A DNA stretch of 35,786 nucleotides. Origin: Acidimicrobiia bacterium (GTDB lineage: Bacteria > Actinomycetota > Acidimicrobiia > Acidimicrobiales > Bin134). The stretch spans positions 1 through 35,786 of the forward strand of contig JAJEDQ010000008.1 of assembly GCA_022821445.1 (NCBI GenBank). Direction: 5' to 3'. This document shows positions 12,678 to 30,460 of the stretch, piece after piece. A model generated the notes under the pieces. It saw only the letters and a program-made list of their open reading frames with translations. It was not told where the DNA came from and did not search any database. Position numbers and translations under genes: made by a program. Each line of letters opens with the position of its first letter. Position 1 is the first letter of the stretch.

Positions 12678-13694
12678 ATGCGGACAGAGGAGCTTCACTA
12701 CGAGCTGCCCGATGCCGCCATCGCCCAGCAGCCGGCCGAGCCCCGCGACAGCTCCCGATTGCTGGTAGACCGGGGGCCCGCCGCTCCCCCCGAGCATCGC
12801 TTTACCCGGGATCTGCCCGATCTCTTGAGCCCCGGCGACGTGCTGGTGGTGAACGACAGCCGGGTTATGGGCGCCCGACTGCGCCTCCGCAAGGCCACGG
12901 GGGGCCAAGTGGAGGTCTTGTTGTTGGAACCGGGAAACGACGGCTGGTGGAGCGCCTTGGTGCGACCGGGCCGTCGGGTGCGGCCGGGCGTCGAGCTGTG
13001 GTTCGAAGAGCAGCCCGTCTTGGAGGTGGGGGGGCGAATCGGAGATGACGGACGGCGGTGGGTGAAGCCGATTGGCGACGCCGATGCCCTCATGGATCGA
13101 GCCGGGGAGGTGCCGCTTCCCCCCTATGTCACCGAGGAGTTGGCCGACGTCGAGCGCTACCAGACGGTCTACGCCGATCGGCCGGTGTCGGCGGCCGCGC
13201 CCACCGCGGGGCTCCACTTCACCCCAGCGGTGCTGGACCGCTGCCGGTCGGCTGGGGCCAGGGTGTGCCAGCTGGAATTGGCCGTGGGTACGGCCACGTT
13301 CACCCCGGTGATGGCAGATGAGCTCGGCGACCACGTCATGCACGCCGAGACGTACCGGATCCCCGAGGCCACACTGGCCGCCTGCGTCCGGGCTGAGCGG
13401 GTGGTAGCCGTGGGCACAACCGTGGTGCGGGCACTGGAGTCGGCCGCGGCCACCGGATCGGCCAGAGGCTCCACCGATCTGTTCATCAAGCCGGGACACC
13501 AGTTCGCGGTGGTGGATGCCATGCTCACCAACTTCCATCTGCCCCGGTCCAGCCTGCTGGCCCTATTGGCTGCTTTCGTGGGTCCCCGCTGGCGCGATCT
13601 CTATGCCACGGCCTTGGCCGAGGGCTACCGCTTTCTTTCTCTCGGGGATGCCATGTTCTGCACTAGAAATCCAGGGCAGACTTTGAGATCGTGA
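12678..13694 (+). CDS. queA: S-adenosylmethionine:tRNA ribosyltransferase-isomerase QueA
   Basis: Penultimate queuosine step: transfers the ribosyl part of SAM to preQ1 already in tRNA, giving epoxyqueuosine. The protein is 338 aa, near the usual length. Family blocks seen: HYELPDAAIAQQPAEPRDSSRLL near the start, VVNDSRVMGARLR, PLPPYVTEEL, YQTVYADRPVSAAAPTAGLHFT, VGTATFTPV and GTTVVRALESAA. It is placed directly before tgt, which inserts preQ1 into tRNA, so the pair makes and matures the modified base. Its TGA overlaps a GTG that opens a 12-codon mini-ORF before tgt. Confidence 0.96.
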   Translation: MRTEELHYELPDAAIAQQPAEPRDSSRLLVDRGPAAPPEHRFTRDLPDLLSPGDVLVVNDSRVMGARLRLRKATGGQVEVLLLEPGNDGWWSALVRPGRRVRPGVELWFEEQPVLEVGGRIGDDGRRWVKPIGDADALMDRAGEVPLPPYVTEELADVERYQTVYADRPVSAAAPTAGLHFTPAVLDRCRSAGARVCQLELAVGTATFTPVMADELGDHVMHAETYRIPEATLAACVRAERVVAVGTTVVRALESAAATGSARGSTDLFIKPGHQFAVVDAMLTNFHLPRSSLLALLAAFVGPRWRDLYATALAEGYRFLSLGDAMFCTRNPGQTLRS

Positions 13695-13729
13695 GCCTGC
13701 AAGTCTGGGACACTGAGAAGGCCGCCTGA
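13691..13729 (+). CDS. 12-codon mini-ORF between queA and tgt
   Basis: GTG at 13691 lies inside GTGA shared with the queA stop and reads MSLQVWDTEKAA, stop. tgt starts 2 bases later with MTLQFNV. The shared M-[ST]-L-Q start is the same arrangement seen more clearly at apt/rel, hisS, rarA and aroE, but here the likeness is only four codons and could be chance. No known function; translation unproven. Confidence 0.25.
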   Translation: MSLQVWDTEKAA

Positions 13730-13731
13730 AA

Positions 13732-14841
13732 ATGACTCTCCAATTCAACGTGTTGGCTCAAGACGGGCAGGCCCGCAAAGGCCGGATCACCACGCCGAGG
13801 GGCTCTTTCACCACTCCGTGCTTCATGCCGGTGGGCACCCGGGCCGCGGTCCGCACCCTAGACACCAGCGATCTCGAGGCTCTCAATCCCCCAGTGGTGC
13901 TGGCCAACACCTACCACCTGATGATGAGGCCCGGTCCCGAGGTGGTGGAGCAAATGGGCGGCGTCCACGGCTTCACCGGCTGGTCGGGCCATGTGCTCAC
14001 CGACTCCGGCGGCTATCAGGTGTTCTCCCTCGATCCCAAGGTGGACGACGACGGCGCCACGTTCCGGTCCACTTACGACGGCACTTCCCATCGCTTCACC
14101 GCGGAGCGGGTGGTGGATGTGCAGCTCCAGCTTGGATCCGACATCCAAATGGTCCTCGACGTGTGCCCTCCATCGGAAGCCCCTGCAACGGTCCAGCGCC
14201 AGACGGTGGACCGCACTGCGGACTGGGCGGTCCGGGCCCGCCGCCGCTTTCTGGAAGTGGAAGGGCACAATGCCGGCGCCAACCAGTTCGGCATCGTCCA
14301 GGGTGGGACCGATCCCGCCCTCCGGGCCGAGAGCGCAGCCCGGACCGTCGAGGTGGGCTTCGACGGCTATGCGGTGGGCGGGCTTTCGGTGGGGGAGAGC
14401 CCCGGGCAGATGATGGTCGCTCTGGCCGCTACCGCCCCGCTCCTGCCCCAAGATCAGCCCCGCTACTTCATGGGGCTGGGCGATCCCATCGGGCTGCTGG
14501 AATGCGTGGCCCTGGGGGTGGACATGTTCGACTGCGTGCTGCCCACCCGGCTCGCCCGCCACGGCACCGCTCTCACCTGGGAGGGCCGACTCAACCTCGG
14601 CAACTCTTCGCTGGCCAACGATGACCGCCCCGTCGATCCCCACTTTCCGGCCAGTCCGGCTGCCCGCTACTCCCGGGCCTACCTGCGCCACCTGTTCAAC
14701 GTGGACGAGCCTTCGGCGGCCCGAATGCTCACTCTCCACAACGTGGCCTGGCTGTTGGCCCTCATGGAGGAGGCCCAAGACGCCATCGCGACAGGCACCC
14801 TTGACCGTTTGATCGCCAAGACGGCTGAGGCGTGGGGCTGA
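13732..14841 (+). CDS. tgt: tRNA-guanine transglycosylase, lacking the zinc cysteines
   Basis: Exchanges guanine 34 of tRNA for preQ1 (369 aa, TIM barrel). Catalytic parts are conserved: Asp in LTDSGGYQVFSL, Asp and Cys in MVLDVCPP, Gln in FGIVQGG, GGLSVGE, and the nucleophile Asp in MFDCVLPTR. The zinc site is not. The usual C-x-C-x2-C segment aligns without gaps to DPHFPASPAARYSRAYLRHL, so the three cysteines are Phe305, Ala307 and Ala310. The fourth ligand, His336 in TLHN, is kept at the normal 26-residue distance. The fold may be stabilised without zinc. Glu of the usual FDEC motif is Val here. It is probably cotranscribed with queA. Confidence 0.93.
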   Translation: MTLQFNVLAQDGQARKGRITTPRGSFTTPCFMPVGTRAAVRTLDTSDLEALNPPVVLANTYHLMMRPGPEVVEQMGGVHGFTGWSGHVLTDSGGYQVFSLDPKVDDDGATFRSTYDGTSHRFTAERVVDVQLQLGSDIQMVLDVCPPSEAPATVQRQTVDRTADWAVRARRRFLEVEGHNAGANQFGIVQGGTDPALRAESAARTVEVGFDGYAVGGLSVGESPGQMMVALAATAPLLPQDQPRYFMGLGDPIGLLECVALGVDMFDCVLPTRLARHGTALTWEGRLNLGNSSLANDDRPVDPHFPASPAARYSRAYLRHLFNVDEPSAARMLTLHNVAWLLALMEEAQDAIATGTLDRLIAKTAEAWG

Positions 14842-14888
14842 CTTATTCGGCTAAGCCCGCCGAGTCGTCTCCCAGCTAGGTCTTCCGG

Positions 14889-14894
14889 TAGAAT
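14889..14894 (+). promoter_or_regulatory. -10 box of a leaderless promoter for yajC-secD-secF
   Basis: GGTAGAAT with 8 bases to the TTG start of yajC at 14903. The 61-base gap after tgt has no ribosome binding site and no clear terminator hairpin. Confidence 0.5.
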
Positions 14895-14902
14895 TCTGGG
14901 CC

Positions 14903-15217
14903 TTGGACGTCCTGCTGCTTCCGCTTTTGATTGTCGTCGCCATGTATTTCTTCATGATACGCCCCCAACAGAGAAAAGCGCGCCTACACCGCGAGCTGCT
15001 CGAATCTTTGGATGTGGGCGACGAGGTGATCACCGCATCGGGCCTCTACGGGATGATCACCGATTTCGACGGTGGCACTGTGTTCATCGAGATCTCTGAT
15101 GGCGTTGAAATCAAGATCAGCCGCGACACCATCGCCAACAAGGTCGTGTACTCCTCCGAAGTCGATGGCGACGACGGTCAGGGGCCTCTGCTTAGTGGCG
15201 ACGACGCTGACGGCTAG
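14903..15217 (+). CDS. yajC: preprotein translocase subunit YajC
   Basis: Small single-span membrane protein (104 aa) of the SecDF-YajC accessory complex, which aids SecYEG-dependent export. The hallmark MYFFMIRPQQRKAR follows the N-terminal hydrophobic segment (about 3-18), then the GDEVITASGLYGMITDFD and VEIKISRDTIANKV blocks. The start is TTG 14903, leaving only three residues before the hydrophobic segment; no other in-frame start fits. It sits 18 bases before secD. Confidence 0.95.
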   Translation: MDVLLLPLLIVVAMYFFMIRPQQRKARLHRELLESLDVGDEVITASGLYGMITDFDGGTVFIEISDGVEIKISRDTIANKVVYSSEVDGDDGQGPLLSGDDADG

Positions 15218-15235
15218 CCCCATCCTCCAGCGTCA

Positions 15236-16789
15236 ATGAGCCGCCGTTCGCTGGTTTCGCTTGTCCTCATAGTGGCTGCGGCCGCTGGGCTGTTGGCCGC
15301 CTCGCTGGCGGTTGGAAATCGACCCCTGCTGGGATTGGACCTCAAGGGCGGGGTCGAGGTGGTGCTGGTGCCGGTGGACGACCCCGACCGTCCCGTGGCC
15401 ATCACCGAAGGCGACCTGGATACCGCGGTCGACATCATCCGCGACCGCATCGACGGTCTCGGTGTGGCCGAGCCCGATGTGACCCGCCAGGGCGGACGGG
15501 TGGTGGTGCAGCTTCCCGGCATCAGCGATCAACAGCGGGCCATCGACGTTGTGGGCCAGACCGCCGAGCTCCGCTTCCGCCCGGTGTGCGCCGAGCTCTT
15601 CACCGAGCCGATCGTCCTTTCCGATCCTGAATCTGGTGTCGAGGCCCCGCCGCCCCCGCCTCTGCCCGATCCCGAGCTCGACCAGAGGGGATTGGCCCCC
15701 TGTCCAAGCGGCATCGACCTCAACAGCCTGGAGACCTCAACCTCGGCCGAGGATGTACTTGAGCGCTTTGTTGTATTGCCCGAGCGAGATGACAACGGTG
15801 AAGTGGTCATACGCTACCTGCTAGGCCCATCCACGCTCACCGGTGCCGGTCTCTCCAGCGCCGACAGCTCATTCCGGGGCGAGTTCGTGGTGGATGCCAC
15901 CTTCAAGGGCGGTGACCAGGGGGCGGATAAGTTCGACGAGATAGCGGTGGAGTGCTATTCGGGCACACCATACTGCCCGCCGGGTGTGGCCGGGCTTGGC
16001 CAGCTAGCTGTCGTGGTAGACGGAAGCGTGCAGTCGGCGCCCTCGGTGCAGAGCCCCAACTTCGACGGCCAAGTGGTTATCTCCGGCAACTTCTCCGACC
16101 AAGAAGCCGACGACCTGGCCCTGGTTCTGCGCTACGGCGCGCTGCCCATCGAGTTTCAAGACCCCACCGACCCCCAGAGCGACAGCACCAGCCGGGCCGT
16201 GTCGGCCACCATCGGGGGCGACTCCTTGCGGGCTGGGATTATCGCCGGCATCGTCGGACTGGCGCTGGTGTTCTTGTACATGGTGGGCATGTACCGCTTG
16301 TTGGGCCTGGTTGCCATGTTGAGCCTGGGGGTGTCGGCCACCCTGCTGTGGGTGATCGTGGCCTGGCTGGGCGAGACCCAGGATCTGGCCCTGACCCTGG
16401 CCGGAGTCACCGGCCTCATCGTGGCGATCGGCGTTTCCCTGGACTCCAACGTGGTGTACTTCGAGCACCTCAAAGAGGATGTGGCCACCGGTCGGATGCT
16501 GAGATCGTCGCTGGAGCAATCCTTCTCGGCGGCGTTTCGGACCATCTTCAGGGCCAACTTCGCCTCGCTCATCGCCGCGGTCATCTTGTACTGGCTCTCG
16601 GCCGGGTCGGTTCGCGGCTTCGCCCTGATGCTGGGCTTGGCCTCGGTGCTCGACCTGGTGGCCACCTACTTCTTCCTCCGGCCCTGCGCGCAGTTGATGG
16701 CTCGGTCGCCGAGCCTGATGGCCCATCCCCACCGCCTCGGCCTGCCCACTAGGGATGAGGCCATGTCTGCGGGAGTCGAGGCATCATGA
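15236..16789 (+). CDS. secD: protein translocase subunit SecD
   Basis: RND-type membrane protein (517 aa) that uses the proton gradient to pull exported proteins from the Sec channel. An N-terminal span (about 5-25) is followed by the LGLDLKGGVEVVL motif, a large extracytoplasmic P1 domain containing a Pro/Glu-rich insertion (about 135-155), and five C-terminal spans starting at the DSLRAGIIAGIVGLALVF region. Conserved GVSLDSNVVYFEH and the ALMLGLASVLDLVATYFF segment are present. It overlaps secF by ATGA. Confidence 0.97.
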   Translation: MSRRSLVSLVLIVAAAAGLLAASLAVGNRPLLGLDLKGGVEVVLVPVDDPDRPVAITEGDLDTAVDIIRDRIDGLGVAEPDVTRQGGRVVVQLPGISDQQRAIDVVGQTAELRFRPVCAELFTEPIVLSDPESGVEAPPPPPLPDPELDQRGLAPCPSGIDLNSLETSTSAEDVLERFVVLPERDDNGEVVIRYLLGPSTLTGAGLSSADSSFRGEFVVDATFKGGDQGADKFDEIAVECYSGTPYCPPGVAGLGQLAVVVDGSVQSAPSVQSPNFDGQVVISGNFSDQEADDLALVLRYGALPIEFQDPTDPQSDSTSRAVSATIGGDSLRAGIIAGIVGLALVFLYMVGMYRLLGLVAMLSLGVSATLLWVIVAWLGETQDLALTLAGVTGLIVAIGVSLDSNVVYFEHLKEDVATGRMLRSSLEQSFSAAFRTIFRANFASLIAAVILYWLSAGSVRGFALMLGLASVLDLVATYFFLRPCAQLMARSPSLMAHPHRLGLPTRDEAMSAGVEAS

Positions 16790-17889
16790 GCCGCCTCCAG
16801 CGCCTGAGGCGCAACCAGACCCAGGTGGACTTCCCCGTGGTGTGGAAGACCACGCTGAAAGTGTCCGCCGCTCTGATCCTCATCAGCGCCATAGCCCTGT
16901 TGGTGCGGGGGGTCAATCTGGGCATCGAGTTCGAGGGCGGCACGGTGTGGGAGGCCTCCGCACCCGATGTGTCCACTGCCGATGTGCGCGACGCCTTGAG
17001 GGATGTGGGCCAGGCCGACGCCAAGATCCAGTTCGTGGGCGGCGACGTGCTTCGGGTGCGGGCCGAGTTGGACGCCACCGATGCCTCCAGCGTGGCCGAG
17101 GTGTCGCTGGCCCTGGCCAACCTCACCGGCCAGAGCCTCGACGACATCAGCTTCAACTCCATCAGCGCGTCGTGGGGCAGTGAGATCACCAGCAAGGCCA
17201 TGCGAGCGCTGATCGTGTTATTCATCGTGGTGGCCATTTACATCACGCTGACGCTGGAGTGGCGGATGGCTCTGGCCGCCCTGGTGGCAGTGGCCCACGA
17301 CATCGTCATCACCGTGGGCATCTATGCCCTGTTCCAGTTCGAGGTGACTCCGGCCACGGTGATCGCCTTCCTCACCATCATGGGGTACTCCCTGTACGAC
17401 ACCTTGGTGGTGTTCGACAAGAACCGCGACTACCAGCGTCGCTCGGCACTGGTGGGGCGGGCCACCTACACCCGGATTATGAACTCGGCGCTGAACACGG
17501 TGCTCCTGCGGTCGGTGAACACCACCATTACCTCGGTGCTGCCCGTGCTGTCGATGCTGGTGATCGGCACGCTGGTGCTGGGCGCGGTCACCTTGGCCGA
17601 GTTTGCCGTGGCCCTGCTCATCGGCTTGCTGGTGGGCACCTATTCGTCGCTGTTTGTGGCCGCGCCGGCGGCGGCTTGGATGAAGGAGCGCCAGCCTGAG
17701 TTCGTGGAGCAGCGGGAGCGCTTGGAGGCCCGGGCCCAGTCCCGGGGCGCCACCGTGCAAGACGTGGAGGAAGTGGCGGTGGGCCCGTCATCGCCTGCTC
17801 CGGCGCCGTCGGCGGACCGCCCGACCCGCCGGCCATCGCAGCCGGGCACGGCCATCCCACCCCGCCCCCGAAAGCGCAAGCGGCGCTGA
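16786..17889 (+). CDS. secF: protein translocase subunit SecF
   Basis: Partner of SecD (367 aa): one N-terminal span, the [12 protein letters not shown] motif, a short periplasmic-type domain, then five spans with [33 protein letters not shown] and the [13 protein letters not shown] block typical of SecF. A Pro/Arg-rich basic cytoplasmic tail (about 320-367, ending RPRKRKRR) is added to the core. The 37-base gap before apt contains the apt promoter. Confidence 0.97.
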
Positions 17890-17913
17890 GCAAGTCGCTC
17901 GTCAGCAGGCAGG

Positions 17914-17919
17914 TAGGGT
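17914..17919 (+). promoter_or_regulatory. -10 box of a leaderless promoter for apt
   Basis: GGTAGGGT, then 7 bases, then the apt GTG at 17927. The G-run in between touches the start codon, so it is too close to act as a Shine-Dalgarno. Confidence 0.45.
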
Positions 17920-17926
17920 TGGGGGA

Positions 17927-18469
17927 GTGGATTCCGGCTGGCCTGAAAGCCTAATTCGGGACGTCCCCGACTTCCCTTCACCGGGGATCATGTTCAAGGA
18001 CATCACCCCGCTGCTTGACGACGCTGAGGCCTTCCGCTGGGCTGCCGATGAACTAGCAGACCGCTTCAGCAATACCCCTGCGGATCGAGTGGTGGGCGTT
18101 GAGGCCCGGGGTTTCATATTGGGGGCCGCAGTGGCCTACCGCCTGGGGCTCGGATTTGTGCCCGTTCGCAAATCGGGAAAACTGCCCTATCTCACCAGGT
18201 CGGTGGACTATGAACTGGAGTACGGCACCGCTTCCCTCGAAGCCCACAACGACGCCTTTTCCCCCGGTCAACGGGCCTTGATCGTGGATGATGTTCTGGC
18301 TACGGGGGGCACGGCGGCCGCCACCTTCGAACTCGTCAATTCCGGGGGCGCCGAGGTGGCCGGGATGGGCTTCCTTATCGAGTTGGGTTTTCTGGATGGC
18401 CGGGAGAAAATAGAGAGAGATGCCAACTGTCCGGTGATTTCTTTGTTCTGTTTTGGGGGTGATTCGTGA
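17927..18469 (+). CDS. apt: adenine phosphoribosyltransferase
   Basis: Purine salvage: adenine plus PRPP gives AMP and pyrophosphate. Protein of 180 aa, starting GTG 17927 ([20 protein letters not shown], the family N-terminus). [12 protein letters not shown] and the PRPP loop [14 protein letters not shown] are intact. The C-terminus [13 protein letters not shown] is the source of a motif repeated twice more downstream in mini-ORFs. Its stop overlaps the first mini-ORF by GTGA. Pairing with rel is common in actinobacteria. Confidence 0.97.
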
Positions 18470-18528
18470 GGCTCGAAGAACGGCTATTGCCCTTGATCTC
18501 TCTGTTCTGCTTCAGGGGTGATTCGTGA
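18466..18528 (+). CDS. 20-codon chimeric mini-ORF 1 between apt and rel
   Basis: GTG at 18466 overlaps the apt stop by GTGA. It reads MRLEERLLP (compare rel MTLTERVLP) followed by [11 protein letters not shown] and stop (compare apt [11 protein letters not shown]). Its own stop overlaps the next GTG, again by GTGA. It could be translated by termination-reinitiation; no peptide function is known. Confidence 0.4.
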
Positions 18529-18587
18529 CGCTGGGAGAACGGCTATTGCCCTTGATCTCTCTGTTCTGTTTTGGAGGTGACGGGTGA
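18525..18587 (+). CDS. 20-codon chimeric mini-ORF 2 between apt and rel
   Basis: GTG at 18525 overlaps the stop of mini-ORF 1, and its stop overlaps the rel GTG at 18584. It reads MTLGERLLP then [20 protein letters not shown] near its end (18574-18581) could act as the ribosome binding site for rel, so the repeat may change how rel is translated. Confidence 0.4.
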   Translation: MTLGERLLPLISLFCFGGDG

Positions 18588-20794
18588 CGCTGACCGAGCG
18601 TGTACTGCCCTGGACGGATCAGCCCGGACAAGACGTGGGCCCGCTGCTCGACGCCTATCTCGAACGCCATCCCAACGGCACCGCCGACCGCATCGAGACT
18701 GCCTATCGCCTCGCTGAGCAGGCCCACGCCGGGCAGTTGCGCAAGTCCGGCGAGCCCTATGTGACCCATCCTCTGGCTGTGGCCCACATTGTGGTGGAGT
18801 TGGGGCTGGACGACGTCTCGGTCATCGCCGCCCTGCTCCACGACGCCATCGAGGACACCTCTATGGATTTGGCCGAGGTCGAGCAGCACTTCGGCAGCGA
18901 GGTGGCCTCGATCGTCGACAGCGTCACCCGGTTGGACCGGCTCAAGTTCAATACGCAGGAGGAGGAGCAGGCCGCCTCCATGCGCAAGATGCTGGTGGCC
19001 ATCGCCAAGGATCTGCGGGTGCTGGTGGTGAAGCTGTCCGACCGGCTGCACAACATGCGGACGCTGGCCGCGCTTCCGCTGGAGAAGCAGCATCGGGTGG
19101 CCCGGGAAACCATAGACATCTACGCCCCGCTGGCCAACCGCTTGGGCATGCAAGACCTGAAGCTCCAGGTCGAAGACTTGGCGTTCGCCGCTCTGCACCC
19201 CAAGCGCTACGCAGAAATCGATCGCATGGTGGCCACCCGGGCACCCGAGCGCGACCTGTACCTCACCCAGGTACTCTCCAGCGTTGAAGCCCGCCTGGCC
19301 GAGTTGGGCATCCCCGCTCAGGTCACCGGCCGCCCCAAACACCTGTGGAGCATCTACGAGAAGATGATGACCAAGGACCGCAGCTTCGACGAGATCTACG
19401 ACTTGGTGGGCATGCGGGTGATCGTCGACTCGGTTCGGGACTGCTACGCCGCCCTGGGGTCCATCCACGCCACCTGGAAGCCGGTGCAGGGGCGATTCAA
19501 GGACTACATCGCCATGCCCAAGTTCAACCTGTACCAATCGCTGCACACCACCGTGGTCGGTCCGGGGGGCAAGTCTCTGGAAGTCCAGCTCCGCACCAAT
19601 GAGATGCACGCCCGAGCAGAACAGGGGGTGGCCGCCCACTGGGACTACAAGGAGGGGACCACCACCGATGATCTGGCCTGGTTGGGCCGGATCATCGACT
19701 GGCAGCAGGAGACATCTGACGCGGTCGAGTTCTTGAGCAATCTCAAGACCGACCTCGACCACGACGAGGTCCAGGTGTTCACCCCCAAGGGCGACGTGGT
19801 GTCGCTGCCGATGGGGGCGATTCCCATCGATTTCGCCTACTCCATCCACACCGAGGTGGGCCATGCCTGCATCGGGGCCCGGGTCAACGGCCAGCTCGTG
19901 CCGCTGGACCGCGAGCTTCGGCCCGGCGACATGGTGGAGATCTTCACCTCCAAGGTGGCCGACAAGGGGCCGTCGCGCGATTGGCTTGGCCTGGTGGCCT
20001 CCCATCGGGCCCGCAACAAGATCCGCCAGTGGTTCGCCCAAGCCCGGCGGGAAGATGCCATCAAGGCCGGCCGCGACGCGGTGGCCGCGGCCCTGCGCCG
20101 AGAGCGCCTGCCGGTGGCGAAGATCCTGTCGGGCGAAGAGCTGCTGCACGCGGCCACCGACATGAACTACCGCGATCTCGACACTTTGTTCGCCGCGGTG
20201 GGGGAGCGCCATGTGTCGGCCAAGGCGGTGGCCGAGCGGGTGGCCGGAATGAGGGTGGAGCCCGCAGCGGAAGAGGAGCTGGACGATGATCTGGCCGCTG
20301 TCCCGCCGCCGGCGGTGTTGCCCCGGCGCACCGATCAGCCGGTGGAGGTTGAGGGCCTCGACGATGTGCTGGTCAACCTGGCTCGCTGCTGCAAACCGGT
20401 TCCCCCCGACGAGATCATCGGCTTCGTTACCCGGGGCCGTGGGGTGTCAGTGCATCGCAACGAGTGCGCCAATGCGGTTTCGCTGTCGTTCGAGCAGGGC
20501 GACCGGCTCATAGACGTGGATTGGAGCACCGAGCGCACCGGCGCTTACTGCGTGACCATTGAGGTCAAGGCGTTCGACCGAACCCGCCTGCTGCGGGATG
20601 TGGCCAATGCCCTGTCCACCGGATCGGTCAACATCCTGGCTTGTGAGACCCGCACCGGCGCCGATCACATCTCGGTGATGCGGTTTGATTTCGAGCTGAT
20701 CGACGGCACCCACCTCGACGCTTTGTTACGCACCATCCGGGGCATCGAGTCGGTCTACAACGCCTACCGAGTCCTCCCCGCCGCCACCGGCTAG
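18584..20794 (+). CDS. rel: bifunctional (p)ppGpp synthetase/hydrolase Rel
   Basis: Stringent-response enzyme (736 aa). HD hydrolase domain with LLHDAIEDT (about residues 85-93), RelA/SpoT synthetase domain with GRPKHLWSIYEKM, EIYDLVGMRVIV and the RFKD motif (304-307) expected of bifunctional Rel, then TGS (VFTPKGDVVSLPMGAIPIDFAY), a zinc-finger-like RCCKPVPPDEIIGFVTRGRGVSVH and a C-terminal ACT domain. Start at GTG 18584 with GGAGG upstream; this start overlaps the preceding mini-ORF stop. Full length, no damage seen. Confidence 0.97.
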   Translation: MTLTERVLPWTDQPGQDVGPLLDAYLERHPNGTADRIETAYRLAEQAHAGQLRKSGEPYVTHPLAVAHIVVELGLDDVSVIAALLHDAIEDTSMDLAEVEQHFGSEVASIVDSVTRLDRLKFNTQEEEQAASMRKMLVAIAKDLRVLVVKLSDRLHNMRTLAALPLEKQHRVARETIDIYAPLANRLGMQDLKLQVEDLAFAALHPKRYAEIDRMVATRAPERDLYLTQVLSSVEARLAELGIPAQVTGRPKHLWSIYEKMMTKDRSFDEIYDLVGMRVIVDSVRDCYAALGSIHATWKPVQGRFKDYIAMPKFNLYQSLHTTVVGPGGKSLEVQLRTNEMHARAEQGVAAHWDYKEGTTTDDLAWLGRIIDWQQETSDAVEFLSNLKTDLDHDEVQVFTPKGDVVSLPMGAIPIDFAYSIHTEVGHACIGARVNGQLVPLDRELRPGDMVEIFTSKVADKGPSRDWLGLVASHRARNKIRQWFAQARREDAIKAGRDAVAAALRRERLPVAKILSGEELLHAATDMNYRDLDTLFAAVGERHVSAKAVAERVAGMRVEPAAEEELDDDLAAVPPPAVLPRRTDQPVEVEGLDDVLVNLARCCKPVPPDEIIGFVTRGRGVSVHRNECANAVSLSFEQGDRLIDVDWSTERTGAYCVTIEVKAFDRTRLLRDVANALSTGSVNILACETRTGADHISVMRFDFELIDGTHLDALLRTIRGIESVYNAYRVLPAATG

Positions 20795-20862: not shown

Positions 20863-21105
20863 ATGGCAGTTGTGCAGTATCGAGTTTCGGAACGAGGCCA
20901 GATGGCACTGCCGGCTGAAGCCCGTCGCCGCTGGAACCTTGCCGGTGGGGGTGCGGTGGAGATCGCCGATCTCGGTTCGGCCCTCGTTGTCGTTCCCGCA
21001 GGTCGAGGCGGATTGCGATCGGTGATCCGAGAGTCCCTCGAGGAAGCAGGGGGATACAGCTCGTTGGTTAGCCGGGTTGCGGCTGACGAGCCTGATCTCG
21101 CGTGA
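20863..21105 (+). CDS. AbrB/SpoVT-type DNA-binding protein, likely antitoxin
   Basis: Protein of 80 aa. Residues 3-45 are a swapped-hairpin AbrB domain (VQYRVSERGQMALPAEARRRW … VEIADLGSALVVVP); the C-terminal 35 residues are the part that would bind a partner. It overlaps the following PIN-like gene by GTGA, the typical layout of a VapB-VapC antitoxin-toxin pair. No ribosome binding site; a leaderless start is inferred from the -10 six bases upstream. The pair sits between rel and hisS. Confidence 0.82.
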   Translation: MAVVQYRVSERGQMALPAEARRRWNLAGGGAVEIADLGSALVVVPAGRGGLRSVIRESLEEAGGYSSLVSRVAADEPDLA

Positions 21106-21551
21106 CTGAGACCGTCCTCGTCGACGATCACATTTTGTTGAGCGTGCTGCTCGATGACGAGCCCGAGGGGCTTCGTCCTATGGGGGGTGCCATTGCTACC
21201 ACGGGGTTGTGGTACCACCGACTGTGTCGGGCGCTGGCGAATCAAACCGTTGTGGGATCGCTGTCTCGGCGCCTCGGCGGGATTGATGTTGCGGTCGCTT
21301 CCGACGTCATTGCCTCTGTGGTTGACCTTCCCCCCACAATCGAACTGGTATCGCTACGCGAGCTCGGTTGGCCGATGGGCGAGTCGGCGTCCCAAGGAAT
21401 TCGCCTCAACCTGCTCTCGCTGGAAGCCGTGGCCGCCGCTCGCCATCTCGGAGCGGAAATATGCCTGGCGGCGGCCGATGACAACAAGCCGCTAGTCGAC
21501 GCTGCCCGCCGCCTTGCCATCCCGGTTCGACGGTTGGCTACCAGACCGTAG
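21102..21551 (+). CDS. PIN-like protein, putative VapC-type toxin with atypical acidic residues
   Basis: Protein of 149 aa from GTG 21102. The N-terminus VLVDDHILLSVLLDD fits the first strand and Asp of a PIN domain. Near the C-terminus, LAAADDNKPLVDAARRLAIPV fits the later acidic cluster and helix. The second PIN acid, normally Glu in an AELLRAL-like helix, is not visible: the equivalent stretch reads GLWYHRLCRALA. It may be a diverged RNase toxin or an inactive relative. Context (an AbrB-type gene overlapping upstream) supports a type II toxin-antitoxin module. Confidence 0.68.
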   Translation: MTETVLVDDHILLSVLLDDEPEGLRPMGGAIATTGLWYHRLCRALANQTVVGSLSRRLGGIDVAVASDVIASVVDLPPTIELVSLRELGWPMGESASQGIRLNLLSLEAVAAARHLGAEICLAAADDNKPLVDAARRLAIPVRRLATRP

Positions 21552-21616: not shown

Positions 21617-21652
21617 GTGGCTGAGATGTTTCAGGCGCCGACAGGCTCGTAG
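21617..21652 (+). CDS. 11-codon mini-ORF copying the HisRS N-terminus
   Basis: Reads MAEMFQAPTGS and stops at TAG 21650-21652; hisS begins two bases later with MSDMFQAPKGT. Seven of 11 residues agree (counting both GTG starts), three more are conservative, and 24 of 33 bases match; TTT/TTC and CAG/CAA are synonymous changes. The 38-base period puts the two in different frames. An in-frame ATG at 21578 could extend it, but the -10 box favours GTG 21617. Confidence 0.45.
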   Translation: MAEMFQAPTGS

Positions 21653-21654: not shown

Positions 21655-22917
21655 GTGTCCGACATGTTCCAAGCGCCGAAGGGGACGCGCGACATCCTGC
21701 CGCCGGAGTCAGATCGGTGGCAGGCGCTGGTGGCCCTGTTTGCCGACGTGTTCGGACGGGCCGGCTATGGGCTGGTGCAGAGTCCCATGTTCGAGGACAT
21801 CGGGGTGTTTCAGCGCTTGGGCGAGGGCACCGAGGTGGTCCGCAAGGAGATGTACGACTTCTTCGACAAGGGTGACCGCCATTTGGCCCTGCGCCCGGAA
21901 GGAACCGCGCCGGTGGTTCGGGCGTTCAACCAGCACCGGCCCACTGTCCCGTGGAAAGTGTGGTATCTCACCCCTTGCTTCCGCTACGAGGAGCCCCAGG
22001 CGGGCCGGTTCCGCCAACACCATCAGGTGGGGGCGGAGGCCATCGGATCACCCGATCCCGACCTCGATGTGGAGGTCATCGCCCTCCAGCACGACTTCTA
22101 CCAGGCGCTCGGTTTGAGCAAACTATCGCTGCGGCTCAACTCCATGGGCAGCCCTGGCGACCGGCAAGCCTATGCCGAGCGGCTGGCCGGATGGCTGGCC
22201 CAGCAGGTAAGGGAGCTGGACGAGGCCGACCGGGCCAACGCCACCGACCACCCGCTGCGGGTGCTGGACTCCAAGCGAGAACGCACTGTGACCGCGATTG
22301 CCGATGCTCCTCTGATCACCGATCACCTCTCCGATGAGGCCGCCGTCCACTTCGAGCGGGTGCAGGCCGGGCTAAACGCCCTAGGGGTGGACTACGAGAT
22401 CGACCCCCGCTTGGTGCGGGGCTTGGACTACTACACCCACTCCACCTGGGAATTTGCCGCGGGTGCCCTGACCTCGGCCCAGAATGCGGTGGGCGGTGGC
22501 GGGCGCTACGACGGACTGGCCGAGTCGCTGGGCGGCAAGGCCACACCTGGAGTGGGGTTCGGTGCCGGCATTGAGCGCATTTTGCTAGCCGCCGATGCCG
22601 AGGGCGCTCTTGCTGATACCTCGGGGGCAGTGGATGTGTTCGTAGTAGACGTGACCGGTGGCGACGCCGGGCGGGATCTCACCTTCGAGTTGCGCCGCAA
22701 CGGCATCTCCGCCGACCGGGCCTTCGACGCCCGCTCGATGAAGGCCCAGATGAAGGTGGCCGACCGCTCCGGAGCCCGGCTGGCCCTTCTGGTGGGAGAG
22801 GACGAGCTGGAGTCAGGCATCGTCACGGTGCGCGACTTGCGCTCGGGCGGCGATCAGACCGCACTACCTCGGACCCAAGTCATAAACGACGTGGCTCAGA
22901 GGCTGGCGAAGGAGTGA
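21655..22917 (+). CDS. hisS: histidyl-tRNA synthetase
   Basis: Charges tRNA-His (420 aa, class II). Motifs: FQAPKGTRDILPPES at the start, RPEGTAPVVRAF, motif 2 CFRYEEPQAGRFRQHHQVGAEAIG, the histidine-specific RGLDYYTHSTWEF and GGGGRYDGL, motif 3 GFGAGIERIL, then the anticodon-binding domain. The start is GTG 21655, which has no Shine-Dalgarno and sits two bases after the stop of the mini-ORF that copies its own N-terminus, so reinitiation is the likely route. Confidence 0.97.
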   Translation: MSDMFQAPKGTRDILPPESDRWQALVALFADVFGRAGYGLVQSPMFEDIGVFQRLGEGTEVVRKEMYDFFDKGDRHLALRPEGTAPVVRAFNQHRPTVPWKVWYLTPCFRYEEPQAGRFRQHHQVGAEAIGSPDPDLDVEVIALQHDFYQALGLSKLSLRLNSMGSPGDRQAYAERLAGWLAQQVRELDEADRANATDHPLRVLDSKRERTVTAIADAPLITDHLSDEAAVHFERVQAGLNALGVDYEIDPRLVRGLDYYTHSTWEFAAGALTSAQNAVGGGGRYDGLAESLGGKATPGVGFGAGIERILLAADAEGALADTSGAVDVFVVDVTGGDAGRDLTFELRRNGISADRAFDARSMKAQMKVADRSGARLALLVGEDELESGIVTVRDLRSGGDQTALPRTQVINDVAQRLAKE

Positions 22918-24671: not shown

Positions 24672-24704
24672 ATGGAGCGCGGCAGCCGGGCCAGATGGCG
24701 ATGA
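24672..24704 (+). CDS. 10-codon mini-ORF after aspS
   Basis: ATG 24672 to TGA 24704, reading MERGSRARWR. It begins 4 bases after the aspS stop and overlaps the next mini-ORF by ATGA. No likeness to its neighbours was seen; it is listed because it links aspS to the rarA relay. Could be chance. Confidence 0.2.
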   Translation: MERGSRARWR

Positions 24705-24769
24705 GCGGGGATCTGTTTGCCGTTCAGCCCGCCCAGCGGCGACCTAGATGCTCAGCATGTTCACCATGA
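24701..24769 (+). CDS. 22-codon mini-ORF copying the RarA N-terminus
   Basis: Starts MSGDLFAVQPAQRRP; rarA at 24766 starts [15 protein letters not shown]. The first seven codons match at 19 of 21 bases (GGG/GGC and GAT/GAC synonymous). After them, GTTC…ACCTAG loosely resembles the end of aspS (GTTC…ACCTAA). Its TGA overlaps the rarA ATG by ATGA. The 65-base period is out of frame. Confidence 0.4.
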   Translation: MSGDLFAVQPAQRRPRCSACSP

Positions 24770-26082
24770 GCGGCGACCTGTTTGCCGCTGCCGCTGCCGA
24801 GCGCCTGGCCGAGACCGCGCCGCTGGCTGATCGGCTCCGGCCCCGCAACCTGGACGAGCTAGTCGGCCAGGGACACCTGCTGGGACGGGGCAAGCCGCTT
24901 CGCCGGCTCATCGAGTCGGACCGCTTGTCGTCGGCCATCTTGTGGGGGCCGCCGGGCACGGGCAAGACCACCATCGCCCGGCTGGTGGCCGGTACTACTG
25001 CTCGGGCCTACATCCAGCTATCCGCGGTGACGGCCACCGTCAAGGATGTGCGGGAAGTGATCGCCTCGGCCCGCGACCGCCTCGGCCAGCACGATCAGGG
25101 CACAATCCTGTTCCTCGACGAGGTGCACCGGTTCAACCGGGCCCAGCAGGATGCCTTGCTGCCCGCAGTGGAGTCTGGGCTCATCACCCTGATCGGGGCG
25201 ACCACCGAGAACCCGTACTTCGAGGTGAACCCGCCGCTGCGGTCCCGCTCCACCCTGTTCCGCCTCGAGCCCCTCGACGGCGATGCGCTGGACGAACTGC
25301 TGCGCCGGGGGCTGGCGGCAGAGGGCGCAGAAGCCGACGACGATGCCTTGGATCACCTGTCGATCCAGGCCGCGGGAGACGGCCGCCAGGCCCTGACCAG
25401 CCTGGAGGTGGCCGTGGTCCTGGCGTCAGCCCAGGACAGCGATCCTCCCCGCGTCACCCTGTCCGACGCCGAGAACGCCCTGGGGGCCAGCGCGGTCCGC
25501 TATGGCCGCGACGAGCACTACGACATCATCAGCGCGTTCATCAAGAGCCTGCGGGGATCCGACCCCGACGCCGGGCTGTACTGGCTTTCGCGAATGCTGG
25601 AGGCGGGGGAGGATCCCCGGTTCATCGCCCGCCGGATGGTGATTCTGGCCTCCGAGGACATCGGCATGGCCGACTCCCAGGCTTTGGTGGTGGCCGACGC
25701 CGCCGCCCGAGCGGTGGAGTACGTAGGCCTGCCCGAAGCGCAGCTCAATCTGGCCCACGCGGTGGTGTATCTGGCCACCGCCCCCAAGTCGAACACGGTC
25801 ACCACTGCGTTGGGAAGGGCCCGGGCCGACGCCGGAGACGGCAGCGGTGAGGTGCCGTCCCACCTCCGAGACGCCCATTACCCGGGGGCGGCCGGCCTAG
25901 GGCACGGCGCAGGCTACGTGTATCCTCATGATGATCCCCAGGGCTGGGTGAGCCAGCAATATCGCCCCGATCGCTTTGAGGATCAGCGCTATTACCATCC
26001 CTCACAACACGGTGCCGAAAGGGAGATTGGCCGGAGAATGATGGATCGGAAAACAGACACCAACGACAGCGAGGAGAGCTGA
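24766..26082 (+). CDS. rarA: replication-associated recombination ATPase RarA (MgsA)
   Basis: AAA+ clamp-loader-like ATPase (438 aa) acting at stalled forks. [16 protein letters not shown], Walker [11 protein letters not shown], Walker [12 protein letters not shown], sensor [18 protein letters not shown], then the MgsA C-terminal tetramerisation region with [23 protein letters not shown] and a final [25 protein letters not shown] block. The start at ATG 24766 gives the family N-terminus [16 protein letters not shown] and overlaps the mini-ORF stop; in-frame ATGs at 24748 and 24757 are alternatives. Confidence 0.95.
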
Positions 26083-26330: not shown

Positions 26331-26339
26331 GAAGGCGTC

Positions 26340-28916
26340 TTGACCCCCAAGCGAGCCCAAGAGATCCGCAGCGCATTCACCTCCTTCTTCGGCGAGCGGG
26401 GCCATGCCGTGCTGCCGTCGGCCAGCCTCATTCCCCGTGATCCCACGGTGTTGTTCACCGTGGCCGGGATGGTGCCGTTCAAGCCCTTCTTCCTCGGCGA
26501 GGAGGCGTCCCCCCATCCCCGGGCCGTCACCGTCCAGAAGTGCGTGCGGGCCGGCGGCAAGCACAACGACCTCGACGAGATCGGCCGCACCCGCCGCCAT
26601 CTCACCTTCTTCGAGATGCTGGGCAATTTCAGCTTCGGCGACTACTTCAAAACCGAGGCCATCGACTGGGCCTGGGAGTTCGTCACCGAGGGTCTGGGCT
26701 TCGACCCCGACCGGCTGTGGATCACCGTCCACCTCAGCGACGATGAGGCCGCGGAGATCTGGCGGGACGTGGCCGGGGTGTCTCCCGACCGAATCCAGCG
26801 GATGGGCAAGGACAATTACTGGCGCATGGCCGATACCGGCCCGTGCGGCCCCTGCTCGGAGATATTCTTCGACAAGGGGCCGGAGTTCGGCCCCGACGGC
26901 GGCCCGGCTCACGGCGGGGACGAGCGGTTCCTGGAGTTCTGGAACCTGGTGTTCATGCAGTTCGACCAGCGTCCCGACGGCCAGGTTCCCCTGCCCAAGC
27001 CCAGCATCGACACCGGGGCCGGCCTGGAGCGGATTCTCACCCTGATCCAGGGGGTGGAGTCGGTATTCGACATCGACGAGATGGCCGAATTGGTGGGCGA
27101 AGCCTCCGCGGTGACCGGCGTGAAGCTCGGTGCGGCCGAGCACAGCGACGTCACCCTGCGGATACTGGCCGAGCACGCCCGCACCATGACCTTCCTCATC
27201 TCCGATGGCGTGTTCCCATCCAACGAGGATCGGGGCTACGTGCTGCGCCGCATCATGCGCCGCGCCATCCGCCGGGCCTACATGCTCGGGGTCACTGAGG
27301 TGGTCACCCCCAAGCTGGTCGACAAAGTGGTCGACATCATGGGCCCGGACTATCCCGACATCGCGGCCGACCACAGCTTCGTTCGAGACGTGGTGGCCCG
27401 CGAGGAGGAGGGCTTTCGGACCACCCTCGCCCAGGGATCCCAGATCTTGGACGACGCCATCGACCGCCTGGGCGAAGACGGGGCTTTGCCCGGCGACCTG
27501 GCCTTCCTCTTGCACGACACCTACGGCTTCCCGGTCGAGGTCACCGAGGAGACAGCCCGGGAACGGGGAGTGGCAGTAGACCGTGCTGGTTTCGACCAGC
27601 ACATGGAGGGCCAGCGATCCCGAGCCCGCGAGGACTTCGACGCCCGGCACGCCACCGCGGCCGACGTTTCGTCTTACGCCGCGCTGGTGGCCCAACACGG
27701 TCCCACCGAGTTCATCGGCCGGGACTTCGACACCACCGAAGCCGTGGTATTGGCCGTCACCGACGATGGCATTGTCTTGGACCGAACCCCGTTCTATGCC
27801 GAGGCCGGTGGCCAGGTGGGCGACACCGGAACCATCACCTCACCCACCGGGCGGGCCGAGGTGTCCGACACCACCTATGTGGTGCCCGATCTCCATCTGC
27901 ACCATGTGACGGCCATCGACGGTCAGATCACCGTCGGACAGACGGTGATAGCAGCTATCGACGCCGACCGCCGGGCCGCCATTCGGCGCAACCACACGGC
28001 GACCCACCTGTTGCACTGGGCGTTGAAGGAGACCCTGGGCGACCACGTCAAGCAGCAGGGCTCGCTGGTGGCCGACGACCGGCTGCGCTTCGACTTCACC
28101 CACTTTGAGGCGCTGACGCACGAGCAGATTGCCGAGATCGAGCGGCTGGCCAACGCCGACATTCTGGACAATCCCGCCACCCGCAACTATGAGACGTCCA
28201 TGGCCGAGGCCACCGAGGCCGGAGCCATCGCCTTTTTCGGCGACAAGTACGGCGACCGGGTTCGGGTGCTCGAGGCCGGGCCGCACTCCATCGAGCTGTG
28301 CGGGGGCACCCATGTGCGGGCTTTGGGCGACATCGGTCCGGTCAAGATCATCTCTGAGGGCTCGATCGGGGCCAACATCCGCCGCATCGAGGCGGTGAGC
28401 GGCACCCGCCCAGTCGAAATGCTCACTGAGCGCGAACAGGTGCTGGCCCAGGCGGCTGAGCGCTTGGGCGTGCCCGTCGAACAGCTGTCGGCGGGGGCCG
28501 ACAAGCGCATGGCCGAGATCAAGAGCCTACGAGCCGAACTGGCCGAGCTGCGCAAGGCGGCATCGTCTGATCAGTCGGGGGATTTGGCCCAGGAGGCCGT
28601 CGACGGGGTGGTTGTGGCCGCAGTCGATGGAGTGGACCGAGGGCAGTTGCGCGACCTGGCCATTGCCACCCGAGACCGCCCCGGCGTGAATGCCGTCGTC
28701 CTCGGGGCCGCTCCCGAGGGAGGCGGGGCGGCCCTGGTTGCCGCGGTGGCCGCCGACTGCGACCTGAACGCGGGCGAGTTGATCGCCGAAGCGGCTGCCA
28801 CCATCGGCGGCGGCGGAGGCCGAGACGCCAAGCTGGCCATCGCCGGCGGCCGGGATCCGTCGCGGCTGGCAGAAGCCCTCGACCAAGTGCGAGCCGCCGC
28901 TGGCATTGGCGGCTGA
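26340..28916 (+). CDS. alaS: alanyl-tRNA synthetase
   Basis: Charges tRNA-Ala and edits mis-made Ser/Gly-tRNA (858 aa). Start TTG 26340 with GGAAGG nine bases upstream. Catalytic domain: GGKHNDLDEIGRTRRHLTFFEM and GNFSFGDYFK, then GPCGPCSEIF. Editing domain zinc site HTATH (His552, His556) with CGGTH (Cys654, His658) complete. C-terminal coiled region and the C-Ala domain ending GGGGGRDAKLAIAGG. Overlaps ruvX by TGATG. Confidence 0.97.
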   Translation: MTPKRAQEIRSAFTSFFGERGHAVLPSASLIPRDPTVLFTVAGMVPFKPFFLGEEASPHPRAVTVQKCVRAGGKHNDLDEIGRTRRHLTFFEMLGNFSFGDYFKTEAIDWAWEFVTEGLGFDPDRLWITVHLSDDEAAEIWRDVAGVSPDRIQRMGKDNYWRMADTGPCGPCSEIFFDKGPEFGPDGGPAHGGDERFLEFWNLVFMQFDQRPDGQVPLPKPSIDTGAGLERILTLIQGVESVFDIDEMAELVGEASAVTGVKLGAAEHSDVTLRILAEHARTMTFLISDGVFPSNEDRGYVLRRIMRRAIRRAYMLGVTEVVTPKLVDKVVDIMGPDYPDIAADHSFVRDVVAREEEGFRTTLAQGSQILDDAIDRLGEDGALPGDLAFLLHDTYGFPVEVTEETARERGVAVDRAGFDQHMEGQRSRAREDFDARHATAADVSSYAALVAQHGPTEFIGRDFDTTEAVVLAVTDDGIVLDRTPFYAEAGGQVGDTGTITSPTGRAEVSDTTYVVPDLHLHHVTAIDGQITVGQTVIAAIDADRRAAIRRNHTATHLLHWALKETLGDHVKQQGSLVADDRLRFDFTHFEALTHEQIAEIERLANADILDNPATRNYETSMAEATEAGAIAFFGDKYGDRVRVLEAGPHSIELCGGTHVRALGDIGPVKIISEGSIGANIRRIEAVSGTRPVEMLTEREQVLAQAAERLGVPVEQLSAGADKRMAEIKSLRAELAELRKAASSDQSGDLAQEAVDGVVVAAVDGVDRGQLRDLAIATRDRPGVNAVVLGAAPEGGGAALVAAVAADCDLNAGELIAEAAATIGGGGGRDAKLAIAGGRDPSRLAEALDQVRAAAGIGG

Positions 28917-29332
28917 TGGGGGCAAGGGCGCTGGGCATCGACCTCGGCGAGCGCCGCATCGGAGTGGCTGTTTCCGACGCCGGAGGCCGGGTGGCCACTC
29001 CCATCACCGTGATCGAGCGCTCTGGCAGTCGAAACCGAGACCACCAGCGGATCTCCGAACTGGTTGCCGAGTATGAGGCCGGGGCGGTGGTGGTGGGCCT
29101 TCCCCTCTCGCTGGACGGCAGCGCCGGTCCAGCCGCTCAGGCCGCAGAGCAAGAAGCCGGGGAGCTGGAGGCGGCGCTGGCCGTGCCGGTATTGACCCAC
29201 GACGAGCGGTTCACCACCGCCATTGCCGAGCGGGCTCTGGCCGAGTCGGGGCTTAGCGGCAAGGCCCGTCGCCAGCGGGTTGACATGGTGGCCGCGTCGG
29301 TCATTCTCCAGAGCTGGCTGGACGCCCCATGA
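28916..29332 (+). CDS. ruvX: YqgF/RuvX family RNase H-fold protein
   Basis: Protein of 138 aa with RNase H-fold motifs: GIDLGERRIGVAVSD at the start, VVVGLPLSLDGSAG in the middle, LTHDERFTT and the last DMVAASVILQSWLD with a conserved Asp. The family is linked to 16S rRNA 5'-end maturation and also proposed as a Holliday junction resolvase; both are literature ideas, not readable here. Placed between alaS and mltG as in other actinobacteria, with overlaps on both sides (TGATG, ATGA). Confidence 0.93.
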   Translation: MGARALGIDLGERRIGVAVSDAGGRVATPITVIERSGSRNRDHQRISELVAEYEAGAVVVGLPLSLDGSAGPAAQAAEQEAGELEAALAVPVLTHDERFTTAIAERALAESGLSGKARRQRVDMVAASVILQSWLDAP

Positions 29333-30420
29333 GCACAGAAGAGGACTGGGACTGGTTGCCTCGGAGAACCTCCACCCTGACCCGGGTCGTCATCCTGCTG
29401 GGCCTGTTGGGCGTGGTTGTGCTGATCGCCTCGCTGTTGATCAAGGGTTGGATCGATGACCGGCTCGACCCCCCCGGAGAGGAGGGTCCGGAATTGGTGG
29501 TCAGTATTCCCCAAGGGGCGTCGATCAACGACATCGCCCGTATTCTCGAAGACGAGGGTGTGGTGCCCAACTCCACGGTGTTCCGCTACTACCTGCGCTA
29601 CAAGGACGCCGGTGACTTCCAGGCCGGCAATTACATCCTGAATGAGAATATGGCGGTATGGCGGGCCAAAGACGTGCTCTTGGCCGGTCCCGCCTCCGGA
29701 CCAGTGGAGGATTCCTTGCGGGTGTTGGTGCCCGAAGGCCTAACGCTGGTCCAGATGCAAGGCCAGCTATTGGATCAGCTTCCCACCTTCGACGCCGACG
29801 AATTGGCCCGCGCCCTGGCCTTTCCACCCTTGCGGTCCGACTATCAGCCGCCCACCAGCACGTTGGAGGGAATGCTCTTCCCCGACACTTATCTGCTCGA
29901 CGCGGCCACCGCCGATGACGAGGCCGCCATCGTTGTCCGCATGGTCAACCAGTTCGACCTTGTGGCCGATGAAGTGGGCCTGGATGCCGCTCCCGAGACG
30001 GTGGGTCTGAGTCCCTACCAAGTGGTCATCGTGGCCTCGCTGATCGAAAAGGAGGCCCTCATCGACGAAGACCGGGCCAAGATAGCCCGGGTGATCTACA
30101 ACCGGTTGGGCCTGGGAATGCCGCTCCAGATCGACGCCGCGGTGCGCTACGCGCTGAACAAGCCCTCCGAGCCGTTGACCTTGTCGGACCTGAGCGTGGA
30201 CAATCCTTACAATGTGTACAACCGAACCGGCTTGCCGCCCGGTCCAATCGCCGCTCCCGGTCGGGCGTCGCTCGAGGCGGCGTTGAACCCTGCCGAGGGC
30301 TTCTGGCAGTTCTACGCCCGCACCGACGATCCCGTGCCCGGCGCCCACACCTTCAGCGTCACCTTCGAGGAGCACGAAGAAGCGGTGGCCATCTGCCGGG
30401 AGAAAGACCTGGGATGCTGA
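29329..30420 (+). CDS. mltG: endolytic transglycosylase MltG
   Basis: Membrane-anchored (363 aa) enzyme that cuts nascent peptidoglycan strands. One N-terminal span (about 18-41), a LysM-like portion (VVSIPQGASINDIARIL), then the YceG core. The catalytic Glu is Glu240 in ASLIEKEA, followed by KIARVIYNRL, MPLQIDAAVRYAL, the NPYNVYNRTGLPPGPIAAPG block and a FYART-type end. The last codons (AICREKDLGC) are partly copied in the mini-ORF that follows. Confidence 0.96.
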   Translation: MSTEEDWDWLPRRTSTLTRVVILLGLLGVVVLIASLLIKGWIDDRLDPPGEEGPELVVSIPQGASINDIARILEDEGVVPNSTVFRYYLRYKDAGDFQAGNYILNENMAVWRAKDVLLAGPASGPVEDSLRVLVPEGLTLVQMQGQLLDQLPTFDADELARALAFPPLRSDYQPPTSTLEGMLFPDTYLLDAATADDEAAIVVRMVNQFDLVADEVGLDAAPETVGLSPYQVVIVASLIEKEALIDEDRAKIARVIYNRLGLGMPLQIDAAVRYALNKPSEPLTLSDLSVDNPYNVYNRTGLPPGPIAAPGRASLEAALNPAEGFWQFYARTDDPVPGAHTFSVTFEEHEEAVAICREKDLGC

Positions 30421-30460
30421 CCGCCATAACCGGTGGAGAACGGAGCCTGGGATGCTGACC
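30408..30460 (+). repeat. 38-bp-period direct repeat at the mltG/aroE junction
   Basis: CCTGGGATGCTGACC occurs exactly at 30408-30422 and 30446-30460; extending it to nCCAT gives 19 of 20 matches. The region between also resembles the mltG 3' end (from GCCAT at 30388) with a 3-base insertion. The unit therefore joins the aroE start to the mltG end. Confidence 0.9.
30414..30458 (+). CDS. 14-codon chimeric mini-ORF between mltG and aroE
   Basis: ATG 30414 overlaps the mltG stop (ATGCTGA). It reads MLTAI (compare aroE MLTPI) and then TGGERSLGC (compare mltG CREKDLGC), stopping at 30456-30458, which again overlaps the aroE ATG as ATGCTGA. The two overlaps are identical in form. Confidence 0.4.
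   Translation: MLTAITGGERSLGC

Follow-up and report, generated by a model that had tools for sequence, protein, structure and literature searches.

The window analysed here, the whole 35,786-nucleotide stretch of contig JAJEDQ010000008.1 from an Acidimicrobiia bacterium (contig C139 in our numbering of a 3.4-Mb, 256-contig genome, G000 below), carries short repeats at junctions between successive genes, in which a copy of the downstream gene's start precedes the true start and opens a very short open reading frame (ORF), here called a relay mini-ORF. Such junction repeats are a trait of the genus to which this bacterium belongs. They are probably tandem duplications of stop/start junctions that have been kept mainly when termination-reinitiation coupling between the two genes was preserved.

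In the window, start copies are found upstream of four genes: rel (twice, with a period of 59 bases), hisS (38), rarA (65) and aroE (38). Every one of these copies begins a mini-ORF, 11-22 codons long, that ends in overlap with the next start or at most 2 bases from it, and all four periods are of the form 3n+2. The features concerned are listed below; the names hisS and aroE are those of the first-pass annotation, an earlier reading of the window from its sequence.

13691..13729, forward strand: relay mini-ORF between queA and tgt, peptide VSLQVWDTEKAA followed by a stop; the queA stop overlaps the mini-ORF GTG, and the tgt ATG is at 13732.
17927..18469, forward strand: apt, upstream gene (Pribosyltran match), the tail of which is the source of the 5' part of the repeat unit.
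18435..18611, forward strand: apt/rel array, about 2.7 units of 59 bases across the apt stop and rel start, from the repeat comparison.
18466..18528, forward strand: apt/rel relay mini-ORF 1, a copy of the rel start fused to a copy of the apt tail.
18525..18587, forward strand: apt/rel relay mini-ORF 2, its stop overlapping the rel GTG at 18584.
18584..20794, forward strand: rel (RelA/SpoT homologue), downstream gene.
21617..21652, forward strand: relay mini-ORF 5' of hisS, VAEMFQAPTGS followed by a stop, with the start copy at -38 and a G-S-stop end.
21655..22917, forward strand: hisS.
24701..24769, forward strand: relay mini-ORF 5' of rarA, with the start copy at -65 and a TGA stop that overlaps the rarA ATG.
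24766..26082, forward strand: rarA (MgsA-type AAA+ ATPase).
29329..30420, forward strand: mltG (YceG family), upstream gene, its tail copied into the mini-ORF.
30414..30458, forward strand: relay mini-ORF between mltG and aroE, MLTAITGGERSLGC followed by a stop, period 38, overlapping the stop of mltG as well as the start of aroE.
30452..31303, forward strand: aroE.

The four junctions described in the first-pass annotation (apt/rel, hisS, aspS/rarA and mltG/aroE) are all present as it described them, and its view that four cases are too many for chance is borne out. When the 130 bases upstream of each of the 33 gene starts in the window were compared with 200 dinucleotide shuffles (P values uncorrected), rel, hisS and rarA reached P = 0.005, which is the floor of the test, and aroE reached P = 0.015; the remaining 29 starts gave P of at least 0.06. 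Other details needed amendment. The mini-ORF was said to end like the preceding gene at apt/rel and mltG/aroE, which is correct, and the hisS mini-ORF must be added, since it ends like rel. In the related genome G012 rel and hisS are adjacent, with the mini-ORF VAESFQTPEGS, which likewise has the G-S-stop end of rel; in the window two genes separate rel from hisS, yet the mini-ORF retains this end. At rarA, the claim that the mini-ORF copies the downstream start stands for a 38-base stretch of the 65-base unit, which matches the rarA start at 76%, whereas searches of the window's genome and of the genus sequence found no source for the remainder. Finally, the annotated span began at 13691, which is the start of a fifth relay, at queA/tgt. 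This relay has the geometry of the four repeat junctions; no DNA-level repeat was detected there by the shuffle test (P = 0.90), and the likeness to tgt is seen at the protein level only.

Two genes occupy positions 20863-21551 between rel and hisS: an AbrB/MazE-like gene (Pfam, below cut-off) and a 149-amino-acid gene without a Pfam match, in a toxin-antitoxin-like layout. By eye, the rel-hisS gaps of G005, G006 and G014 seem to contain similar genes, so the site may be a hot spot for insertions.

Junction repeats were surveyed in 460 kb of the window's genome (the window and contigs C1-C40, about 13% of that genome), 440 kb of G006, 422 kb of G014 (uncultured Acidimicrobiales chromosome OX638350.1), 438 kb of G002 and 295 kb of other members of the genus. 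The relatives searched included 18 genomes of the same genus, rel being found in 17; G005 is an Acidimicrobiia bin and G016 is Acidimicrobiia bacterium SB0675_bin_2. As controls served 400 kb of a genome of the same order (G024) and 1.48 Mb from 77 actinobacterial loci around rel, which represent one conserved region; these came from a named-genome scan of 80 loci, mostly from distant actinobacteria, three of which are genus members. Gene starts from a purpose-written codon-usage gene caller were paired with a repeat scan, which kept the best junction-crossing repeat with a score of at least 17 at each co-directional junction with a gap of at most 200 bases and dropped low-complexity repeats. 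The scan is conservative, recovering two of the window's four cases. It found repeats at 30 of 1181 genus junctions, some rows being mutually orthologous (for example, aroE in G000, G006 and G010), versus 4 of 937 control junctions. The genus repeats come from the window's genome (13/271), G006 (5/250), G014 (3/198), G002 (4/254) and the other members (5/208), and the control repeats from G024 (2/219) and the 77 loci (2/718). A start codon that opens a mini-ORF is present in 26 copies from the genus and in one from the controls (Fisher P = 2.8e-6); the latter is in Actinomadura, and the structure is therefore not exclusive to the genus. The origin proposed in the first-pass annotation, short duplications across stop/start junctions, is supported, as are the excess over controls in the sampled sequence and the geometry of the relays. 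In 22 of the 26 genus mini-ORFs the stop lies within 15 bases of the next start, in keeping with the geometry of coupled gene pairs (overlap or about 10 bases). Relay ORFs as a class number 98 in the genus versus 74.5 in shuffles, 28 versus 17.3 (standard deviation (sd) 2.3) in the window's genome, and 28 versus 27.0 in the controls. A Shine-Dalgarno-like motif precedes 14 of 27 relay mini-ORF starts (25 of the 26 scan mini-ORFs plus those of hisS and rarA), as compared with 44% for 828 genes and 12% for random positions. The repeat units are mostly of 35-42 bases (17/30) or 59-70 bases (10/30). No period within 43-58 occurs among the 30 genus repeats; the ortholog insertions described below nonetheless include one of 47.

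The highest rate is found in a genome of 256 contigs (13/271 versus 17/910 in the rest of the genus sample), as might be expected if short-read binning had produced the repeats by faulty assembly. This explanation is hardly credible, given that the single-contig genomes G006 and G014 carry junction repeats, that the copies differ by substitutions and that orthologous copies are common to separately assembled genomes.

Comparison of orthologous junctions, also suggested in the first-pass annotation, revealed presence, absence and two-unit arrays at single junctions, and copies at aroE in several lineages of the genus. At queA/tgt, nine of ten genomes have a 4-base overlap and only the window's genome has an insertion (+41). 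At secD/secF, 10 of 13 genomes have the overlap and G005 has +62. At apt/rel, the overlap is seen in 10 of 16 genomes, +59 in G007 and G015, and +118 in the window's genome; in G015, where the overlap persists as TAGTG, inspection by eye shows the stop of apt and the start of the mini-ORF both displaced. G006, G011 and G001 have an apt/rel relay of 44 bases by eye (MAPAERALLNDGGGR, MPTAERVRFRCRGDE and MPVVERARPRCGGGG, respectively, each followed by a stop), which is 59 minus 15, that is, shorter by a whole number of codons. At mltG/aroE, there is a 7-base overlap in G002, G005, G007, G013, G018, G011 and G001, a single 38-base unit in G000, G003, G012, G006, G008, G010 and G015, and a pair of units in G014, which match the mltG tail of that genome at 29 of 30 bases. 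Such states lie scattered over a rel tree, which means that gain, loss or both are repeated. The atpG/atpD array is present in the window's genome only, among 15 genomes compared, and the rpsI relay of G006, in which the rpsI start is fused to the upstream tail, is absent from 8 other genomes read. A unit that copies adjacent sequence which is single in relatives, as expected of a tandem duplication, is found at aroE in G014, at rpsI in G006, at rel and at the gene after rarA; the rarA and atpD units show this only in part.

The smallest relays seen, by eye, lie at locus L132 of G003, before a gene starting MRVGLVCPYS, where two 17-base units give the 6-codon relays MTRKPG and MTRKPK, each with its stop.

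The lengths of the units are biased. Where stop and start overlap by 1, 4 or 7 bases, the reading frame of the downstream gene lags one base behind that of the upstream gene, so that with a 3n+2 unit the mini-ORF ends on the true start. The periods of the 30 genus repeats are 3n+2 in 18 cases, 3n+1 in seven and 3n in five (P = 0.0025). Insertion lengths, which are independent of start choice, were read from 58 orthologous junction groups with a member overlapping by 1-14 bases: 16 of 27 distinct insertions are 3n+2 (P = 0.005), eight are 3n+1 and three are 3n. Five of the eight 3n+1 insertions were seen by eye to consist of two equal units (2x17, 2x35 twice, 2x41 and 2x59), and when arrays are counted per unit, 21 of 27 insertions are 3n+2. 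The 51 control insertions divide into 18, 20 and 13 (3n+2, 3n+1 and 3n). Likewise, gaps of 16-75 bases are 1 modulo 3 at 176 of 415 genus junctions (P = 7e-5), versus 83 of 239 control junctions, and this bias is significant alone in the window's genome (43/93) and in G006 (41/89). These three frame counts share data and include related genomes, and their P values are uncorrected.

Counting relay ORFs on expanded junctions alone proved uninformative (14 of 29 observed versus 10.2 expected from shuffles); a relay follows almost automatically from a given gap frame and overlapping ends, and the gap frame itself was therefore used as the measure. An automatic ortholog comparison on called starts placed 15 of 29 cases in the expected frame (controls 25 of 77), and six of its seven frame-neutral cases have, by eye, an in-frame start overlapping the upstream stop. 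Because start ambiguity blurs this comparison, it was redone with the insertion lengths given above.

Within a gene, a tandem duplication is disruptive unless its length is divisible by 3, whereas a duplication that spans a junction leaves both neighbours intact and so survives. Mutation and survivorship might thus suffice: ordinary short tandem duplications would be retained at junctions, and the mini-ORFs would have no role. As a full account we find this unlikely. For 41 genus duplications (score of at least 18, period of 25-80 and not divisible by 3), a model that places them at random outside gene interiors predicts that 6.8 (sd 2.3) would cover both a stop and a start, while 13 were observed (P about 0.007); neutral placement alone therefore yields a good share of these events. 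Also in favour of survivorship are arrays unique to one genome, such as that at atpD, and a total of tandem duplication outside genes that is not clearly above that of G024. The 3n+2 bias, however, has no reason in mutation alone, and duplications containing a start make up 22 of 41 in the genus and 1 of 48 in the controls, where about 15 would be expected. Thus, part of the excess is explained by survivorship, and beyond that the genus retains duplications at junctions of a kind not retained in the controls. The idea in the first-pass annotation that the duplications survive because both genes stay whole accordingly covers part of the pattern; it does not predict the length bias, nor the surplus of stop-and-start duplications over neutral placement.

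The relay peptides resemble their own neighbours. Compared with permuted partners, 90 relay peptides (rows sharing a downstream start being merged) are closer to their own downstream N-terminus and upstream C-terminus (both P = 0.0005); without the 10 rows with DNA repeats (n = 80), the N-terminal likeness persists (P = 0.0005) and the C-terminal one is marginal (P = 0.05). It is very unlikely that the mini-ORFs are regulatory leader or stalling peptides selected for their sequence. The pooled ratio of nonsynonymous to synonymous changes (pN/pS) of homologous mini-ORFs, 0.55 (16 pairs, uncorrected), would agree with such a role. However, the peptides differ between junctions because each copies its own neighbours, homologous ones change often (the aroE peptide is MLTAITGGERSLGC, VLTACIGRDRSPGC or MPAVGRGRNLVC among relatives), and the copy number varies from 0 to 2 among close relatives (apt/rel, G000 versus G003 and G012). 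The peptides seem weakly constrained, with frame and ends mattering more than sequence; selection on the peptide, as suggested in the first-pass annotation, is weakly supported.

Mycobacterial interspersed repetitive units (MIRUs), the closest analogue known, are a family of homologous repeats found at many loci. They are described, in the excerpts of the 2025 review PMC12548453 consulted, as apparently mobile repeats that insert at start codons and contain an ORF coupled to the downstream gene at -4 spacing, the coupling likely leaving the insertion with little effect on expression. The present units agree with this description in their coupling geometry, having an ORF inside the unit that is coupled, by geometry, to the downstream gene, and the rarA and atpD units resemble a start copy joined to DNA without a local source. 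Even so, we regard a mobile MIRU-like family that inserted at start codons and then degenerated as highly improbable. MIRUs are described as mobile repeats, whereas the units here are local and unrelated between junctions: when 19 units were compared with about 2.06 Mb of sequence from the genus (E 0.01), each matched its own locus or its orthologues only, and the other matches of the rarA unit in the whole window genome are of at most 23 bases with E of 0.2 or worse. Several units are clear fusions of both flanking genes. Presence and absence are observed at single junctions, and no transfer of a unit between junctions was seen.

The sequences also contain repeats of other kinds. Positions 10116-10391 of the window hold a 90-base in-frame tandem repeat (3.1 copies, 98% match) within a 158-amino-acid ORF (9998-10474) without a Pfam match, perhaps a coiled coil. 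Loci L197, L198, L205, L207 and L211 of G024 carry a palindromic 27-base repeat (GTCGGTTGATGTCAGACATCAACCGAC) in intergenic pairs about 56 bases apart. Sequences like CCGGCACAGCCCCGCCCG occur in pairs 140-149 bases apart at L149 (G006) and L072 (G014), at three gene edges per locus.

Duplication kept for coupling, the explanation that we favour, may work as follows. Tight operon junctions, with an overlap of 1, 4 or 7 bases, would duplicate locally in tandem, presumably through a replication or repair event. Besides the tail and stop of the upstream gene, the unit contains the downstream gene's start and, in many cases, a Shine-Dalgarno-like motif; the duplication spares both genes, and the interposed mini-ORF opens like the downstream gene and closes like the upstream one. 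With a 3n+2 unit, the mini-ORF would be in frame with the copied stop and terminate on the next start. In this way a ribosome that has finished the first gene could start again on the mini-ORF and, after terminating there, once more on the second gene, so that coupling otherwise lost over a gap of 35-70 bases would be retained. Duplications that keep the relay would persist, could reach two units and could be lost again, the peptide being largely free to drift. Reporter experiments described in the parts of PMC10666635 consulted show that termination-reinitiation requires an overlap or a very small distance: at 38 nt it fell by 80-90% or was lost altogether in three E. coli gene pairs, and at 22-23 nt it was close to zero in H. 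volcanii. Given so steep a distance dependence, 35-70 inserted bases would break the coupling of the two genes, except where they include a relay ORF with overlapping ends. The repeats, their excess over controls, the variation in presence and the frame bias are observed, whereas translation of the mini-ORFs, selection for coupling and the event that makes the copies are inferred.

Several observations weigh against this explanation. The relay-ORF counts of G006, G014 and G002, taken singly, are within 2 sd of shuffles, and the gap-frame bias is not significant in G014, G002 or the mixed orthologue set taken singly; contrasted directly, genus and controls differ only modestly in frame (P = 0.03 and 0.04). 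Even when counted per unit, six of the 27 insertions misfit: 27 (G011), 30 (G017), 60 and 40/70 (G000, L009), 40 (G002) and 34 (G006), the last being at apt/rel, where the 44-base relay overlaps the apt end. The excess of duplications covering both stop and start is only about twofold, and the rarA 65-base and atpD 35-base units include bases without a visible local source. Control peptides (n = 28) also resemble their neighbours weakly (P = 0.02 and 0.03), and a pN/pS of 0.55 leaves some constraint on the peptide possible.

Termination-reinitiation at overlapping genes (ATGA, TGATG) is described in the consulted parts of PMC6728339 and PMC10666635, and the same 4- or 1-base stop/start overlap is found here at relay ends. 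In contrast to classical coupling of overlapping genes, coupling here would run via one or two extra mini-ORFs derived from a duplicated junction. A short upstream ORF has been proposed to drive translation of the next gene (excerpts of PMC12548453); unlike such ribosome-delivering ORFs, the present relays arise repeatedly by visible duplication of the junction and with a length bias. No report of locally templated relay ORFs was found among the titles and abstract openings listed by full-text searches of open-licence PMC literature for tandem or short tandem duplication together with gene overlap, coupling, reinitiation or operons.

A further idea, which we offer tentatively and consider rather doubtful, is that junction duplication serves as a reversible expression dial, where 0, 1 or 2 units would set the ratio of the neighbouring proteins, each unit multiplying in a reinitiation probability below one. 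If so, slippage between units would let populations tune operon stoichiometry without altering either protein. In these bacteria a single operon junction occurs with 0, 1 or 2 relays across related species, which amounts to a natural mutagenesis series for termination-reinitiation. The relays show how small ORFs can emerge in one step, already equipped with start, stop and ribosome-binding motif, and their lengths suggest that operon coupling restricts insertions to 3n+2 bases.

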